Assembly: GCF_030816475.1 (NCBI RefSeq)
Contig: NZ_JAUSXF010000001.1
Location: 3,720,001-3,784,000, forward strand
Origin: Arthrobacter pascens
Lineage (GTDB): Bacteria; Actinomycetota; Actinomycetes; Actinomycetales; Micrococcaceae
Reading direction: 5' to 3'
Length of the DNA: 64,000 bases
The notes under the pieces were generated by a model, which was not told the origin of the DNA, did not search any database, and saw only the letters and a program-made list of their open reading frames with translations. Positions within the stretch are counted from its first letter, which is position 1. Each line of letters begins with the position of its first letter. Positions 48,728 to 56,760 of this stretch are shown in pieces. A program made the translations under genes and the position numbers.

Positions 48728-50086
48728 ATGAGTACGCCCACTACCGAAGTGCACACCGCAACGCAGCCGCAGGAGCTGCCCGGCGGCCCCGCCGTCACCC
48801 AACAGCTGATCGTGCAGAAGTTCGGCGGATCCTCCGTGGCGGACGCCGACGGCATCAAGCGGGTCGCCAAGCGCGTCGTGGACGCCCAGCAGGCCGGCAA
48901 CGAGGTTGTCGTGGTGGTCTCTGCCATGGGCGACACCACCGACGAACTCCTGGACCTTGCCTCGCAGGTAACTGATTCCGCACCTGCCCGCGAAATGGAC
49001 ATGCTCCTCTCCGCCGGTGAGCGCATCTCCATGGCACTGCTGGCTATGGCCATCAACAAGCTCGGCGCCTCCGCGCAATCGTTCACGGGTTCCCAGGCCG
49101 GCATGATCACGGATGGCATCCACGGCAAGGCACGAATCATCGACGTCGATCCGCACCGCATCCGCACCGCACTGGACAAGGGGCACATCGCGATCGTGGC
49201 CGGCTTCCAAGGAATGAGCCGCGCCACCAACGAGATCACCACCCTGGGCCGTGGCGGCTCGGACACCACCGCCGTTGCCCTGGCAGCCGCGCTGGAAGCA
49301 GACGTCTGCGAGATCTACACCGACGTTGACGGCATTTACACGGCCGACCCCAGGGTGGTGCCTTCGGCGCAGAAGATCGACACCATCTCCAGCGAGGAGA
49401 TGCTGGAACTGGCTGCCTCCGGCGCCAAGATCCTGCACCTGCGCTGCGTGGAATACGCACGCCGCTTCGGCGTCCCGTTGCACGTCCGGTCCTCATTTAG
49501 CCAGCACGAAGGCACATGGGTCATCCCCAGTGCCGAAGACAAGATCATCACTCAAGAGGGAGTCGCCTTGGAGCAGCCAATCATCTCCGGCGTAGCACAT
49601 GACCGTTCGGAAGCCAAGGTCACCGTGGTGGGCGTTCCGGACATTCCAGGCAAGGCAGCAGCGATCTTCCAGGTCATCGCAGACGCCCACTCAAACATCG
49701 ACATGATCGTGCAGAACGTCTCCACCCATGGCACGGGCCGGACAGACATTTCCTTTACCCTTCCCATCGTCGAAGGGGCGGATGCGCTGGAGGCGCTTCG
49801 TGCAGCGCAGCCGGAAATCGGCTTCGAGAGCATCGAGTACAACGAGCAGATCGGCAAGCTGTCCCTCATTGGCGCCGGCATGCGTTCGCACCCGGGCGTT
49901 TCCGCCCGCTTCTTCGCTGCCTTGTCGGAAGCCGGAATCAACATCAACATGATCTCCACCTCGGAGATCCGCATTTCCGTCGTGACCCACGCTGACCTGC
50001 TCGACGACGCCGTGCGTGCCATCCACAAAGCGTTCGGCCTCGACAGTGATAGCGAAGCCACCGTGTACGGCGGTACCGGCCGCTAA
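48728..50086 (+). CDS. lysC: Aspartate kinase, alpha subunit (full length)
   Basis: The enzyme phosphorylates aspartate in the first step to lysine, threonine and methionine. The protein has 452 aa, about 30 more than the corynebacterial enzyme, because of a Ser/Thr/Pro-rich N-terminus before [11 protein letters not shown]. Kinase motifs are [19 protein letters not shown] and [15 protein letters not shown]. Two ACT domains (about 281-452) bind feedback amino acids. GAAGG precedes ATG 48728. asd, the usual next gene, is absent; two strong palindromes follow the stop instead. Confidence 0.97.
49568..50086 (+). CDS. lysC: Aspartate kinase beta subunit from an internal start
   Basis: Codon 281 is TTG (49568), in frame, with AAGAGGGAG (49554-49562) five bases upstream, a strong ribosome site inside a gene. 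The product would be 172 aa, the size of the known beta subunit of Corynebacterium lysC, and would consist of both ACT domains starting [19 protein letters not shown]. The alpha2beta2 arrangement is known in related actinobacteria; its use here is inferred from the ribosome site. Confidence 0.65.
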
Positions 50087-50591: not shown

Positions 50592-50852
50592 TTAGCGGAG
50601 GGACTTGTCATCCGGGTTCTTCGAGACAACGTACGTGCTGCCGTCCGGGCGGCGCACCGTCTCCCATTGTTGGCTTTCAGCTTCGCGCCGGGCCAGAAGT
50701 TGCCGGTTCTCCTCGGTCATCTCGTGCACCAGGGAACTACGGTTGGCAGGACCGAAGATGGCCCTGAGTTTGCCCGTTGCCCGCATGAAGCGCTGGGAGG
50801 CATTGCCCCTGCCGCCAGCCGTGCCCTTGCCCGCTGCACTGTCCTTACCCAC
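50592..50852 (-). CDS. Small conserved protein (86 aa), paralogue of the previous gene
   Basis: A GTG start at 50852 has AAGGAG eight bases upstream. A Gly/Ser/Lys-rich N-terminus is followed by MRATGKLRAIFGPANRSSLVHEMTEENRQLLARREAESQQWETVRRPDGSTYVVSKNPDD. The LR-x-IFGPA core matches the neighbouring 68-aa protein. It diverges from the OhrR-like gene and shares that control region. The function is unknown. Confidence 0.78.
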   Translation of the reverse strand: MGKDSAAGKGTAGGRGNASQRFMRATGKLRAIFGPANRSSLVHEMTEENRQLLARREAESQQWETVRRPDGSTYVVSKNPDDKSLR

Positions 50853-50899: not shown

Positions 50900-50919
50900 A
50901 TGATTAGTGCACTAATCAT
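50900..50919. promoter_or_regulatory. Perfect 20-bp operator upstream of the OhrR-like gene
   Basis: ATGATTAGTG (50900-50909) is followed at once by its reverse complement CACTAATCAT. MarR/OhrR dimers bind palindromes of this type. The site is 25 bases before ATG 50944 and also upstream of the divergent 86-aa gene, so it could control both. Confidence 0.7.
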
Positions 50920-50943
50920 CGGAGGCTTTTATTGGAGGCTGTC

Positions 50944-51441
50944 ATGACAACAAAGCTGTCCCAGTCAAGGACCGGGGAGCAGCGGGACGACGACCTGCTG
51001 CTGGAGCACCAGCTGTGCTTCGCCCTGACAGTGGCGTCAAGGAGCGTGGTGGGCGCCTACAAGCCGGTTCTGGAGAAGCTGGGATTGACCCATCCGCAAT
51101 ACCTGGTGATGCTCTGCCTGTGGGAATCCAGCCCCCGCACCGTCCGCAACATCAGTGAGGCCCTTGCCCAGGAGCCTGCCACTATCTCACCCTTGCTCCG
51201 GCGGCTCGAAACCGCCGGACTCATCACCCGGCAGCGGGTCGACGGGAACGAACGCTCCCTTGCCGTCGGGCTGACCCCTGCCGGCGCGGAGCTGCGGAAT
51301 CGGGCCCTCGCGGTGCCCGGCACGATGATGGAACGCCTCGGCCTCACACGGGAACAGGTCGGGCAACTGCATGCCTCCATGATGGGGCTGATTGCAGCCA
51401 CCGCCGGAGACGCCGGCCGGCAACCGGACCTCCAGCGATAG
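50944..51441 (+). CDS. OhrR-like MarR-family regulator
   Basis: The protein has 165 aa. LLLEHQLCFALTVASRSVVGAYKPVLEKLGLTHPQYLVMLCLWE closely follows Bacillus OhrR as I recall it, with the peroxide-sensing cysteine at Cys25. Of the three tyrosines that contact that Cys in Bacillus OhrR, one is kept (Tyr39), one is Thr29 and one is His49 here. The winged helix contains ISEALAQEPATISPLLRRLETAGLITRQRVDGNERS. No ohr peroxidase gene is adjacent; three coupled genes for SSI-like and unknown proteins follow. GGAG before ATG 50944 sets the start. Confidence 0.88.
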   Translation: MTTKLSQSRTGEQRDDDLLLEHQLCFALTVASRSVVGAYKPVLEKLGLTHPQYLVMLCLWESSPRTVRNISEALAQEPATISPLLRRLETAGLITRQRVDGNERSLAVGLTPAGAELRNRALAVPGTMMERLGLTREQVGQLHASMMGLIAATAGDAGRQPDLQR

Positions 51442-51469
51442 AATGGCACTAATCGAGGAGGCCAGACGG

Positions 51470-52030
51470 GTGCGTAAATTGCTGTTCCAGGTGGCGGCCC
51501 TGCTGGTGGCTGCGGGTGCGATGTCAGCCTGCACCGGCACCCCGGGCCCGGTCAGCTCTTCATCAGGCACAGCCACTGCAGGCACCTCAGGTACATCGGA
51601 TACCTCCGGCGCTCCGGCCCCGGACACCGAAACATCCGTTCCTGCTCCTGCACCGCCGTCGTCCCCCGCACCGTCAGGGCCGGGGGCAGGCAACGCCGAA
51701 TTGGCCATCATGGTCAAACCGTCCGAGGCGGAACCCGCATTGAACTACACACTGGTCTGCCAGAATGGCGTGCCCGCCGCGGAAAGCAAGCACCCCGCAG
51801 CGGACGCAGCCTGCGCGGCCCTGAAGAACAACGCCGCTCTGCTGAGCCCGTCCATCAAGGGCACTGCCCAGGCATGCACGGAACAATACGGCGGACCGCA
51901 ACAGGCCACGGTCACGGGCATCGTCGATGAAACTCCCGTGGACGTCACCTTTGCCCGCACTAACGGCTGCGAGATCAGCGCCTGGGATGCTGCCCGGGAG
52001 ATCCTCGGGGTTGCCGGTGGAGCACCTTAG
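51470..52030 (+). CDS. Exported SSI-like (subtilisin-inhibitor family) protein
   Basis: The protein has 186 aa. The start GTG 51470 has GAGGAGG upstream; ATG 51443 is an alternative. A signal peptide ends near MSAC (possible lipobox). A Ser/Thr/Pro linker runs to about residue 75. The last 100 residues match the SSI layout, with four cysteines in the expected order (LVCQNG, AACAAL, QACTEQY, NGCEIS), giving two disulfides. The reactive-site loop position reads Cys-Thr-Glu-Gln-Tyr, placing P1 at Glu138 rather than the Met/Lys usual in Streptomyces inhibitors. The family assignment is from pattern memory. Confidence 0.75.
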   Translation: MRKLLFQVAALLVAAGAMSACTGTPGPVSSSSGTATAGTSGTSDTSGAPAPDTETSVPAPAPPSSPAPSGPGAGNAELAIMVKPSEAEPALNYTLVCQNGVPAAESKHPAADAACAALKNNAALLSPSIKGTAQACTEQYGGPQQATVTGIVDETPVDVTFARTNGCEISAWDAAREILGVAGGAP

Positions 52031-52976
52031 CCTGCTGGCGCCGGATGACTGGCTCACGCGCCAGGCCGCACACCAGGAACGCGTCCGGCGCTACGCAGAC
52101 CCTTACCTTGCCCGCCGATCCGCCAGCCGAAAGCATCCGGTTGAGGACTTTCTTTTCACCTACTACACGCAGAAACCTGGGCAGCTTATGCGCTGGCACC
52201 CGGGATCCGGCGTCGTCCTGACCGGGCCTGAGGCTGCTGCCCGCAACGGCTGGAAGCACTACAGAACGCTCGACGACGGCGAACTCGCCTCGCTGGGGCT
52301 GCCCGCCGGAACCGCGGCTGTCACCTTCGACCGCCGCAGCTTCCTGGACGACCGGCACCAGGCCGTTGCCTTCGCCGCAATAATCCTCCGCGGAACCGCG
52401 GCCAGGCCCGCCCAGTTCGGCTGTTTCGGACTTCATGAATGGGCCATGGTCTACCGCCAGGACAAGTTCGACCTGCGGCATGAATACCTGCGCCTGCGCC
52501 TGGGTTCCGCAGGCACGGACAAGGTGGTGGAGGATAACAGGATCCGCTGTTCGCACTTTGATGCCTTCCGCTTCTATACTCCCGACGCCGTACCCCTGAA
52601 TGAGCTGGCGCCCAGCCGCGACAACCAGCGCGACCTGGAACAGCCGGGCTGCCTGCATGCCAACATGGACCTCTACAAGTGGGCGTACAAGCTGCTGCCC
52701 GCACTCTCCAGTGAACTGGTCATGGACTGCTTTGAACTCTCCTGGCGGATCCGGGCCATGGACATGCAGGCTTCCCCCTATGACCTTGAGGAGTGGGGTT
52801 ACCCGGCCATCCGCATCGAAACAGCAGAAGGCAAAGCGGCCTACGTGGAGCACCAGCGGGCCTTCGCCGCGGAAGCGGCGGCGCTCCGCAGGCGCCTCGA
52901 TCTGGAACTCGCACCCCTAACCCCCGCGCCGGGTACGGGGACTGGCGCAAGGGATGAGGGAGACCTCAGGGAATGA
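52017..52976 (+). CDS. Conserved actinobacterial protein (sometimes annotated 3-methyladenine DNA glycosylase)
   Basis: The protein has 319 aa. GTG 52017 overlaps the previous stop by 14 bases and is the first plausible start. It includes YLARRSASRKHPVEDFLFTYYTQKPGQLMRWHPGSG, CFGLHEWAMVYRQ and CLHANMDLYKWAYKLLPALSSELVMDCFEL. I do not see the helix-hairpin-helix of known AlkA/Tag glycosylases, so the database label is doubtful. Conserved His, Glu, Asp and Cys residues suggest an enzyme. It is coupled on both sides to SSI-like genes. Confidence 0.75.
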   Translation: MEHLSLLAPDDWLTRQAAHQERVRRYADPYLARRSASRKHPVEDFLFTYYTQKPGQLMRWHPGSGVVLTGPEAAARNGWKHYRTLDDGELASLGLPAGTAAVTFDRRSFLDDRHQAVAFAAIILRGTAARPAQFGCFGLHEWAMVYRQDKFDLRHEYLRLRLGSAGTDKVVEDNRIRCSHFDAFRFYTPDAVPLNELAPSRDNQRDLEQPGCLHANMDLYKWAYKLLPALSSELVMDCFELSWRIRAMDMQASPYDLEEWGYPAIRIETAEGKAAYVEHQRAFAAEAAALRRRLDLELAPLTPAPGTGTGARDEGDLRE

Positions 52977-53353
52977 CAGCGCACGGCAACGAATCACTCC
53001 CGATCAACCTGACCATCAGGCTCAGGCAGGGTCCGGACGGCGGTGAGCACGAGTTCAGGCTTGTTGCCGCCGACGGCCGGCCTGCTGCCGGGTCCACGTT
53101 GCCGGATCCGGACGCTGCACTGGCCGCGGTGGAGCGGTTCGGCGAGGATATCTTCTTTCCGAAACCGGGGCCGCCCAGGCTGTGCACCCAGCAATACGGC
53201 GGCCCGCAGACTGCCCTGGTGACGGGAACATTCAGGGGCCGCACAGTCGCCGCCACCTTCCGCCGCACGGATGGCTGCGAGATCGCCCGCTGGAATGCCA
53301 TGGCACCGTTGCTGGGCGGGACCGCTGGGCCGGCCGGCCGCCTCGGGGACTAA
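52973..53353 (+). CDS. Cytoplasmic SSI-like protein lacking signal peptide and first disulfide
   Basis: The protein has 126 aa. ATG 52973 overlaps the preceding stop (ATGA). It aligns without gaps to the second half of the exported SSI-like protein: LVCQNGVPAAES versus LVAADGRPAAGS, then CTEQYGGPQ versus CTQQYGGPQ, and NGCEISAWDA versus DGCEIARWNA. The first cysteine pair is replaced (Ala, Leu), while the reactive-loop pair is kept. P1 would be Gln73. No signal peptide is present, so it stays in the cytoplasm. Its stop overlaps that of the convergent subtilase. Confidence 0.75.
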   Translation: MTAHGNESLPINLTIRLRQGPDGGEHEFRLVAADGRPAAGSTLPDPDAALAAVERFGEDIFFPKPGPPRLCTQQYGGPQTALVTGTFRGRTVAATFRRTDGCEIARWNAMAPLLGGTAGPAGRLGD

Positions 53354-56300
53354 CCGCCCGGGAGCCTGTCCGCAACCGCAGTCTCGGGAGACCCTGCCGG
53401 TGCTGACTGAGCGGAGGCTTCCACCTTGACGCTCACCCACGTCGTGATGCCGTTTCCGCCAAGGCTCAACCGGGAGAGGTAGGAGCCGCCGGATAGTCCG
53501 GTCCAGTTAAGCGTGGCAGCGGTGGCCACGCCGTTTGGCGCCAGGATCGGGTTCGGACTGACAGACAGGTTCCCGGCATCACCCAAGAACGTCACAGCCT
53601 GGACCGCCGCACTGGCCGGTCCGTTCCCGGGAGTGGAGTAGAGGTTGGCCACGACGTAGTACGTGCCCGCCCGCGGCTTCTCCAGGTCCAGGAACTCGCT
53701 GGCGGAAGCCGTCGCTACCTGGGTTGCTGAGAGGCCGCCAGCGCCGTCAGGGCCATATACCACCATGTCCCAGTCGACGTCGTCCGTTTCTGCCTGGACG
53801 CCAAGCCGGGCAAAGGTGGCACCTTCCGGCACCGTCACGCGGATGAGGGCATTGTGCTCGTCGTTCACCGGTGCATAGGCGCCCGGCGTCTTGGTAACGG
53901 CAGTTTCGCTTATGGGTGCGAGCCCTTCGACTCCCACCGCGATGGGGCTGTCGGAGCCGGAAACGAGCTGCGTGCTCCCGCTTCCCGTTCCGGTGGAAGA
54001 GCTGAAGGAGAATGAGGGCGCGATCTTGGCATCAACCGGGCGGGCGGCGATGGGCGAACTCACTGTACGCGGCCCCTTCCAGGTCAGTTCACCTGTGCTG
54101 AACTTGCCCACTGGTGCACTGACGTTCCTGATGGTGATGGTCACCTCGCGGGTCTTGCCCTGCTTCGCGAAAGTCAGGACCTGCGGCTCAACATGGATAT
54201 CAAAGCCGGGCATTGTCACCTCAGGCCTGTAGCTGCCCGGAACCAGCGCTGTCAGCTGCCGCTTGACCTGGACCTCACCCACCAGGTTGCCCACGGCAAT
54301 GGAGGGAAGGTTCAGGTTGACGGCGGCAAGTGAGCCTGCCTCCGGCGCTCCTGTATCCAGGCCCTGGCCGTTAAGGAAGGCCAGCCAGTCCTGGACGCCC
54401 GAGTCGTATACGAGGCCTGGATCCAGGACACGGGTGGAATCGATGTGGCCGGCGCCACCCTGGAAGGGATCCCGATTAGGCGTGCCGTCGGCATTGACCA
54501 GCGGATAGGCCGTGGTCATCATGGCGGACTTCACCATTGCCGGGGTCCACCGGGGCTGTTTGCCCAGCACCAGGGCACCAAAGCCGGCAATGTGCGGGGC
54601 TGCCATGGAGGTCCCTGACATGAAGCCGAACTGGTCGCCGTCGTTCCCTATTGTTGAGACACCGGCCAGGACATTCACGCCCGGGGCGGCAATGTCCGGC
54701 TTGAGCAGATCGCCGCCCGAGGCCAGGCTGGGTCCGCGTGAGGAGAAGCCGGCAACCTGGGGCGCCGGGGCCATCGGATCCCCCGTCAGATCCCCCTTGA
54801 CCAGGCTGACCGTCAGGCTGGGATTTGCGCCCAGCTTCGACTTCAGTTCCAGGCTTTTGGGTGTATTGACGTGCACGGTGGGTACCACGTGGTTGTCAGC
54901 GTCCTCGGAACTCCCCGTGAGGTTCACGAGGATCATTCCCACACCGCCTTTGTTCTGGACTTCAAGGCTCTTGGCCGTCCTGTCCACCACGCCGCGGTCA
55001 CACACCACCACCTTCCCGGATACTTTGGCCGCGTCCAACGACCCGGGACCGCAGAGGTTTGCATTGGTCGTGCCGGCGGCCGCGGCGTCGGCTGCGATCA
55101 CCGCCTGCTTGTCCCGGAGCTCTGTCTTCATGATGGACGCGCCGCGGTACATGCTGCCGTCGGAAACGCGGACGGTGCCCAGCAGGTCGTTGGGGAACGT
55201 GGAGGCTGCCACCGTCGTCAGCCAAGGGGCGGCATGGTTGACGGTCGAGGCGGCGGGACCTGAGTTGCCGGCGGATGCGGAGATGAAGACCCCGGCGGCA
55301 GCAGCGTTCAGGAATGCCAGGGCCACGGGATCGCTGGTGCTGTCCGTGTTCCCGGAAATGGAGTAGTTCAGGACATCAACGCCGTCCTGGATTGCCGCGT
55401 CCACCGCCTCTACCGAGGCGGATGAGTAGCAGCCGCCGGTCTCGGGATTGTCGTCCTCCCAGCAGATTTTGTAGACAGAGACCTTTGCCGCGGGGGCGAC
55501 CCCGGAGCTCTTGCCGAAACCGGCGCCAGCGATGACCTGTTCCACGTTGGCGTTGCCGGCAGCTGTGGTTGCTGTATGGGTGCCGTGGCTGCCCACGTCC
55601 ACCGGCGAAAGCAGTTCCTGCGGAGCGCGGTGTTCGGGCGCCACGTACTGGAGGAAGGAGTCCGCGAAGTATCTGGCGCTGATGACCTTGGAATTGCACA
55701 GCGTTCCGTCAAATGTGGCGCCGGTGTCCACGCCCTTCTGGCACTCCCCCTCGAAGGTTGTGCCGTCTGCCTTGAGCATGGCGATCCTGCCGTCATCTGT
55801 GCGGTACGGGACGCCTACCTGGGCCGCCCCCTGTAGCGGCTGGACAGCGTCGCCCTGCAGGAAAGGATTGTCCGGAGCGTAGCCCGAATCGATAACTCCT
55901 ACGACGACACCCTTTCCAGCATTCTCCTGCCCTCCGAATTGCCCCGCCCATGCCCCGTCGGGTCCGGTCAGCTTCAGGAAGTCGGTTGCCGTGTAATCGG
56001 GTGCGTTTTCAACGTCCGGGGAAACGGCGAGCACCCTTCTGTCCTTGGAGAGCTGCATGGCCTGGGCGGCTGTCAGCTCTGCCGTAAAGCCGTTGAGGGC
56101 GGCGGTGAACTGCTTGGACGGAGATACGCCCTGGTCTGCGGCGACATCCCGCTGGGCCTTCCGCAGGTGCGCGTCGTAGGCCTTGTAGTTGGGGCTTCCG
56201 GCATCGAGTTTCCTGCCGTTCTGCGGCTTCGTGCCGGCAAGGCCGGGTGTCTCGCCGTCGTAGGCCGCGGCCGCCTTCTCTGCGAGGACCACGATGTAGC

Positions 56301-56517
56301 GGCCGCCCGTGAATGGTGCGGGTGACGCGTTTCTTGAGCCTGTTGCCTGGGCCGGTTCGGCGGGCGCCGCGGTAGCGGGACTCAACGCCATCGAGGTGAG
56401 GAGAAGCGGCAAACTCACGGCCAAGGCCGTCGCTTTCCGGAACCCCCTGCCCCGCACGGGGCTCTTTCCAGTTGTTTTCACGGGCGGCTGCACCTTTCTC
56501 AAGATCCTGGCGCACAT
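53350..56517 (-). CDS. Secreted subtilisin-family (S8) peptidase with PA domain
   Basis: The protein has 1055 aa. A signal peptide (about 25-51) precedes an I9-type propeptide (YIVVLAEK...FTAELTAAQAMQLSKDRRVLAVSPD). The catalytic residues are Asp210 (GVIDSGY), His311 (SHGTHT), oxyanion Asn418 (SAGNSGP) and Ser637 (SGTSMAAPH). A PA domain is inserted at about 450-575 (CGPGSLDAAKVSGKVVVCDRG). C-terminal beta-sandwich domains (about 750-1055) follow. The layout resembles plant-type and streptococcal subtilases. It converges on, and touches, the SSI-like operon. Confidence 0.95.
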   Translation of the reverse strand: MCARILRKVQPPVKTTGKSPVRGRGFRKATALAVSLPLLLTSMALSPATAAPAEPAQATGSRNASPAPFTGGRYIVVLAEKAAAAYDGETPGLAGTKPQNGRKLDAGSPNYKAYDAHLRKAQRDVAADQGVSPSKQFTAALNGFTAELTAAQAMQLSKDRRVLAVSPDVENAPDYTATDFLKLTGPDGAWAGQFGGQENAGKGVVVGVIDSGYAPDNPFLQGDAVQPLQGAAQVGVPYRTDDGRIAMLKADGTTFEGECQKGVDTGATFDGTLCNSKVISARYFADSFLQYVAPEHRAPQELLSPVDVGSHGTHTATTAAGNANVEQVIAGAGFGKSSGVAPAAKVSVYKICWEDDNPETGGCYSSASVEAVDAAIQDGVDVLNYSISGNTDSTSDPVALAFLNAAAAGVFISASAGNSGPAASTVNHAAPWLTTVAASTFPNDLLGTVRVSDGSMYRGASIMKTELRDKQAVIAADAAAAGTTNANLCGPGSLDAAKVSGKVVVCDRGVVDRTAKSLEVQNKGGVGMILVNLTGSSEDADNHVVPTVHVNTPKSLELKSKLGANPSLTVSLVKGDLTGDPMAPAPQVAGFSSRGPSLASGGDLLKPDIAAPGVNVLAGVSTIGNDGDQFGFMSGTSMAAPHIAGFGALVLGKQPRWTPAMVKSAMMTTAYPLVNADGTPNRDPFQGGAGHIDSTRVLDPGLVYDSGVQDWLAFLNGQGLDTGAPEAGSLAAVNLNLPSIAVGNLVGEVQVKRQLTALVPGSYRPEVTMPGFDIHVEPQVLTFAKQGKTREVTITIRNVSAPVGKFSTGELTWKGPRTVSSPIAARPVDAKIAPSFSFSSSTGTGSGSTQLVSGSDSPIAVGVEGLAPISETAVTKTPGAYAPVNDEHNALIRVTVPEGATFARLGVQAETDDVDWDMVVYGPDGAGGLSATQVATASASEFLDLEKPRAGTYYVVANLYSTPGNGPASAAVQAVTFLGDAGNLSVSPNPILAPNGVATAATLNWTGLSGGSYLSRLSLGGNGITTWVSVKVEASAQSAPAGSPETAVADRLPGG

Positions 56518-56728: not shown

Positions 56729-56760
56729 AAAAAAAGGGCGCTCCCTTTCAGGGAACGCCC
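56729..56760 (-). terminator. Rho-independent terminator
   Basis: Read on the minus strand, the stem GGGCG/CGCCC plus CCCT/AGGG (56736-56760) is followed by seven T residues (56735-56729). It ends the 61-aa protein gene at 56791-56976. The rest of 56567-56728 shows no gene. Confidence 0.9.

Follow-up and report, generated by a model that had tools for sequence, protein, structure and literature searches.

Can a bacterium that exports a large protease be seen, from the genes beside it, to carry the means of shielding itself from that protease? The question is raised by a locus of Arthrobacter pascens that lies within a 64,000-nucleotide stretch of contig NZ_JAUSXF010000001.1 (positions 3,720,001 to 3,784,000; hereafter the window, whose own numbering is used throughout). 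A preliminary description had placed five genes within 50900-56517, and they are found there, at 50944-56517. They encode an OhrR-like regulator, a predicted lipoprotein with a domain resembling Streptomyces subtilisin inhibitor (SSI1), a conserved protein named GLY here, a leaderless SSI-like protein (SSI2) and, convergent with these on the opposite strand, a secreted-type S8 subtilase (SUB). The pairing of the protease gene with SSI-like genes is supported as a genomic unit, inhibition itself being a prediction. To the reading that SUB is a secreted subtilase against which SSI-type proteins protect the cell surface we assign a probability of about 0.5.

SUB (53350-56517, minus strand) has the domains expected of the large subtilase announced beforehand. 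An I9 propeptide is followed by an S8 domain (PF00082, 155.3 bits) with a PA insert, by fn3_6 and by a weak PPC match; the N-terminus is signal-like as judged by eye, and the Asp/His/Ser triad can be placed by motif at D210, H311 and S637. All three triad motifs occur in each of the 53 SUB proteins read, which, like the SUB tree, represent 53 of 67 SUB matches, the other 14 having been left out. In this tree the SUB of the window and the SUB of genus g7 fall together. A second type of SUB stands at the same position in other members of the window's genus, and two deep SUB lineages (approximately 55% identical) occupy the same site within the genus, as if one had replaced the other.

SSI1 (51470-52030, plus strand) and SSI2 (52973-53353, plus strand) score under the PF00720 gathering cut-off of 23.9 bits, at 22.1-22.3 and 15.7 bits, respectively, and 24 of 29 aligned proteins, those of the window included, match this family at E ≤ 0.1. 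A 29-sequence profile (A1) finds Streptomyces SSI in the PDB (2sic) with an E of 5.1e-6, in an alignment that matches the loop and each of the four SSI cysteines. An AlphaFold model of SSI2, based on 36 sequences (mean pLDDT 83.3, pTM 0.72), has eight PDB matches at E ≤ 0.001, all of which belong to the SSI family (sermetstatin, SSTI or engineered SSI); the best is 4hwx at E 6.1e-5, and wild-type SSI comes next at 2.7e-3. Profile and model together support the earlier view that both proteins share the SSI fold, if not yet its details, because the TM-scores of the model are moderate (0.5-0.6). Many SSI1 relatives carry the NCBI names 'SSI family serine proteinase inhibitor' or 'serine protease inhibitor'.

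The SSI1 leader contains a lipobox-like motif (read by eye and with a regular expression) and is followed by a Ser/Thr/Pro linker and an SSI-like domain that keeps all four aligned SSI cysteines and has the loop CTEQYGGP. By this leader it looks like a lipoprotein, and its earlier designation as an exported protein is altered in that it appears to be tethered rather than freely secreted. SSI2, whose whole open frame is 131 codons, has no leader and lacks the first Cys pair, retaining only the pair that brackets its loop, CTQQYGGP. The loop pattern CT[QEM]xYGGP is present in most SSI members. Leaderless SSI2 was found in all eight sampled genomes of the window's genus. In genus g19, the leaderless copy lacks cysteine at each of the four aligned positions in 4/4 genomes (L203, L205, L217 and L126), a loss that fits a reducing compartment; the C-terminus of the g19 copy in G091 reads differently. 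A tree of 100 SSI domains, built from few columns and returned with a program warning, groups the leaderless SSI2 of g1, g28 and g18 with g24 lipoproteins (support 82/91). At two loci (L167 in G056 and L168 in G115), an SSI1-SSI2 tandem lies without GLY or SUB beside FmdB-like and CpaB-like genes, named by eye, and a second, distant group of SSI-like lipoproteins with a different loop lies away from GLY and SUB (L170 in G024 and L171 in G097).

The linkage of SUB to SSI was assessed in 149 genomes of the family, with SUB counted at E ≤ 1e-50 and SSI at profile matches of at least 47 bits; a looser SSI count, 125 genomes at E ≤ 0.001, takes in weak matches, the majority of which cover only the leader part of the profile. 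SUB was found in 57 genomes and SSI in 83, with both in 43, SSI only in 40, SUB only in 14 and neither in 52. When both are present they lie within 10 kb of each other in 40 of 43 genomes, the exceptions being G137, at 15 kb, and two genomes (G004 and G035) in which the SUB match has an identity of only 34-42% and is on another contig. GLY is within 10 kb of SUB in 49/57 genomes and of SSI in 76/83. A set of 80 named loci, the best of 594 fetched by GLY, favors relatives of the window and may leave out records of the window's own genome; SUB is present at 41 of these, every one of which also has SSI, and SSI without SUB at 6. In related genomes that have both, the subtilase is thus usually kept near the SSI genes, as the preliminary description required. 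Gene order in the window's clade is OhrR-SSI1-GLY-SSI2-<SUB, a second group is ordered <SUB-GLY-SSI with a lipoprotein-like SSI, and some loci have SUB on both sides (e.g., L042, L048, L052, and L087). All GLY-linked SUBs are on the strand opposite to GLY (44/44, among the 53 read). Pairwise dN/dS values against locus L035 are 0.15 for SSI1, 0.30 for SSI2 and 0.12 for SUB, and span 0.12-0.30 for the five genes, as in proteins under purifying selection.

Such linkage might have arisen passively, if an ancestor had acquired SUB and SSI next to GLY, in the stretch from aspartate kinase to purS, and had passed them on without any joint function. Aspartate kinase, PurS and PurQ do flank the region in many loci, and each partner is found without the other, SSI in 40 genomes and SUB in 14; against this, genus g24 holds the pair together away from GLY. 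In 5 of its 7 genomes SUB and SSI are tail to tail with 196-322 bp between the two matches, on a contig other than GLY's or at least 283 kb from GLY, while in the remaining two either SSI stands beside GLY without SUB (G143) or neither is present (G076). Since these pairs are off GLY and their SUBs nest among GLY-linked SUBs in the SUB tree, the pair has kept together, through a move that was probably a single relocation; a protein that we take from a motif to be tsaD-like is near the pair in the two relocated loci viewed gene by gene, and this shared neighbor likewise suggests a single event. SUB is moreover close to SSI on either side of GLY, upstream or downstream. Of the SUB copies in SSI-bearing genomes, five distant ones (in G004, G019, G025, G035, and G053) have no SSI within 10 kb; for G004 and G035, already counted among the 10-kb exceptions, this comparison is partly circular. 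Passive inheritance of the pair is, on this balance, quite unlikely.

The reading preferred here, self-protection at the surface, would work as follows. SUB would be exported, matured and released, and would digest protein outside the cell. SSI1, lipid-anchored on the outer face of the membrane, would block SUB, or proteases like it, when they attack the cell's own surface proteins, and would do so in the substrate-like manner of SSI, with the Cys-bracketed loop C-T-[QEM]-x-Y-G-G-P offered to the active site. As a paralogue without an export signal, SSI2 would be cytoplasmic, where it may trap SUB molecules that have folded prior to export. That SSI2 guards the cytoplasm against SUB is put forward tentatively, and we are similarly hesitant about a two-compartment guard, in which a tethered SSI outside the cell and a leaderless, cysteine-shedding SSI paralogue inside it would both be directed against one secreted SUB.

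A number of observations weigh against surface protection and its cytoplasmic extension. SUB has no detectable SSI in 14 of 57 genomes (8 in g4 and 6 in g14), SSI has no SUB in 40 of 83, and co-occurrence at the level of genera is modest (both in 10, SSI only in 9, SUB only in 2, neither in 11; one-sided p 0.036). The loop is one residue longer than that of SSI (GGP for DP), and P1/P1' are drawn from few residues, with CTQQYGGP in 21 of 40 SUB-paired lipoproteins, whereas the reactive sites of inhibitors tend to be fast-evolving. Three of the five relocated g24 SSIs have an altered loop (CLDVFSGP and similar) despite their pairing with SUB. The SSI2-type protein of g24 is lipoprotein-like and has also lost the first Cys pair, so that this loss alone is no proof of a cytoplasmic site. 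Finally, SSI and SUB are not neighbors outside the family in the places listed, and at 20 outside-family SSI loci (of 32 listed places) neither GLY nor SUB is beside SSI; the SUB/SSI linkage is therefore a family feature, as far as sampled. Co-occurrence itself, which speaks for the pairing, extends further: among 198 genomes of the order, with SSI counted at E ≤ 1e-8 and SUB-like proteases at E ≤ 1e-120, SSI is present in 39, a SUB-like protease in 38 and both in 27, the figures for the 183 genomes outside the family being 29, 29 and 18, with a Fisher p of 1.6e-10 that overstates the case because the test ignores ancestry.

Some of these points suit other roles for the SSI-like proteins. They may inhibit other proteases, either foreign ones or further ones of the cell, including metalloproteases, as sermetstatin and SSTI do; the folds closest to the SSI2 model are indeed those of sermetstatin, of which structures with snapalysin and with subtilisin exist, and of the SSTI/TAMP inhibitor, and SSI is widespread without SUB, but the tight linkage of SUB in family genomes having both makes this rather unlikely. 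Doubtful, too, is the proposal that SSI2 is a non-inhibitory cytoplasmic derivative whose fold has been put to another use, such as partnering GLY or aiding folding. It would account for the absent first Cys pair, for the g19 copies with none of the four aligned cysteines and an altered loop, and for the overlap or close spacing with GLY. Yet 10 of 16 leaderless rows retain the loop CTQQYGGP and a further one has CTEQYGGP, and in two of five g28 genomes an SSI1-SSI2 tandem stands away from GLY, and without SUB.

A different view of the locus, that of the preliminary description, was of one protease/inhibitor unit responsive to peroxide or xenobiotics, and turns on the regulator. The OhrR-like gene (50944-51441, plus strand; ATG 50944, stop 51441) encodes a MarR protein (PF01047, 47.6 bits) that matches Bacillus subtilis OhrR (1z91) at E 3.5e-30 and carries the N-terminal reactive-Cys motif QLCFAL, in keeping with its first assignment, although it scores 120.8 bits against the NCBIfam OhrR equivalog NF052638, under the cut-off of 200. 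QLCFAL or QLCFSL is present in 35 of 42 orthologues, the remaining 7 having no motif match in the aligned stretch. A perfect 20-bp palindrome, ATGATTAGTGCACTAATCAT (50900-50919), is the probable operator of the gene. Upstream of OhrR, its exact core, TTAGTGCACTAA, ranks as the best palindrome in 24 of 41 loci examined, with at least a half-site in 31 of 41; the 12-bp core has one exact copy genome-wide and two more sites with one mismatch.

In the window's clade, the OhrR-like gene and palindrome are directly upstream of SSI1, as joint control would have it. Both, however, are associated with GLY, and the OhrR-like gene occurs near it without SSI and SUB in 8 of the 80 named loci, 4 of which keep the exact core (L059, L061, L064, and L065). 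Among the 41 loci with SSI and SUB, 11 lacked a detected OhrR, two of them (L045 and L053) ending at a contig edge beside SSI1; SUB, moreover, is on the opposite strand. The best ohr match is at G000:C1:3095280, far from the window, and the ohr-gene locus L182 has no TTAGTGC/GCACTAA half-site. Control of the whole as a single oxidative or xenobiotic unit is accordingly not supported here, and is considered unlikely. On the simplest view, GLY had OhrR as its neighbor first, and the SSI genes came to flank GLY afterwards; for this reason SSI1, GLY and SSI2 are probably on one transcript starting near the OhrR palindrome, with SUB expressed separately. Two contigs with a Micrococcaceae-type locus, at L059 and L083, are titled Sporosarcina and Acidobacteria, and are probably mislabelled or mis-binned.

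The description of the four plus-strand genes as overlapping holds for two of their three junctions, and SSI2 overlaps SUB as well. SSI1 and GLY share 14 nt (GTG 52017 against a stop ending at 52030), and GLY and SSI2 (52973-52976) and SSI2 and SUB (53350-53353) share 4 nt each, whereas OhrR and SSI1 are separate on the assumption that SSI1 begins at GTG 51470, with AGGAGG at 51456-51461. The OhrR/SSI1 overlap of the preliminary description would require the mechanical TTG start at 51392; the GTG is preferred here. GLY itself (52017-52976, plus strand), whose relatives NCBI names '3-methyladenine DNA glycosylase', has this name without domain support here: it has no Pfam or NCBIfam match at E ≤ 1 and no PDB sequence match of weight, and its model (pLDDT 91.8) has no convincing PDB fold match, none of the fold matches listed being a DNA glycosylase. 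GLY was found in 146 of the 149 genomes of the family and in 147 of the 198 of the order. It is a good target for structural and functional work.

The five-gene region is flanked upstream by aspartate kinase (48728-50086) and downstream by purS (from 57236; by blast of the neighbors and by eye). Between aspartate kinase and OhrR lies a small conserved open reading frame of 86 aa without a confident family (50592-50852, minus strand), which is divergent from OhrR in many loci. A strong terminator-like hairpin (56736-56760, minus strand; 11 pairs, 7 T) lies upstream of SUB, on the strand that encodes it, and neither a tRNA nor an Rfam match accounts for this hairpin.

Compared with known systems, SSI1 and SSI2 resemble Streptomyces SSI (PF00720; 2sic, 3ssi) in fold and in the position of the Cys-bracketed reactive loop, and SSI1 in its four cysteines. 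SSI is freely secreted, whereas SSI1 is apparently lipid-anchored and SSI2 leaderless, and the window's proteins differ further in the longer loop with its conserved CT[QEM]xYGGP, in scores under the Pfam cut-off and in the first Cys pair missing from SSI2. SAM-P45 of Streptomyces albogriseolus, a target of SSI, is like SUB a large extracellular subtilase of an actinobacterium. It has been called a membrane-anchored protease (PMC9549277). Over residues 257-828, from S8 to fn3_6, SUB aligns with cucumisin-type and other multidomain subtilases (7eox, 3vta, 3i6s), from which it differs in being bacterial and in having a further C-terminal region. Secreted proteases with adjacent inhibitor genes are also known from the staphopain-staphostatin and SpeB-Spi pairs, the staphostatins being cytoplasmic. 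Those pairs are co-transcribed and combine cysteine proteases with unrelated inhibitor folds, whereas the window has a serine protease, the SSI fold, convergent genes and two inhibitors. Protection of the cell from ectopic protease is mooted for staphostatin and Spi, whose genes adjoin those of the proteases (PMC2873492). The protealysin-emfourin operon encodes a protease together with its inhibitor (PMC9505478); it differs from the window in its metalloprotease, its single operon and its other inhibitor.

To our knowledge, a genome rarely reveals what an SSI-type inhibitor targets in nature. Here the linkage of a subtilase with SSI-fold proteins in ten genera within a single family provides candidate pairs that are directly testable. 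We know of SSI family members only as extracellular proteins; if true, the two-compartment guard would constitute a cytoplasmic branch of the family, and its leaderless, cysteine-shedding paralogue would show a disulfide-stabilised extracellular inhibitor moving into the cytoplasm.

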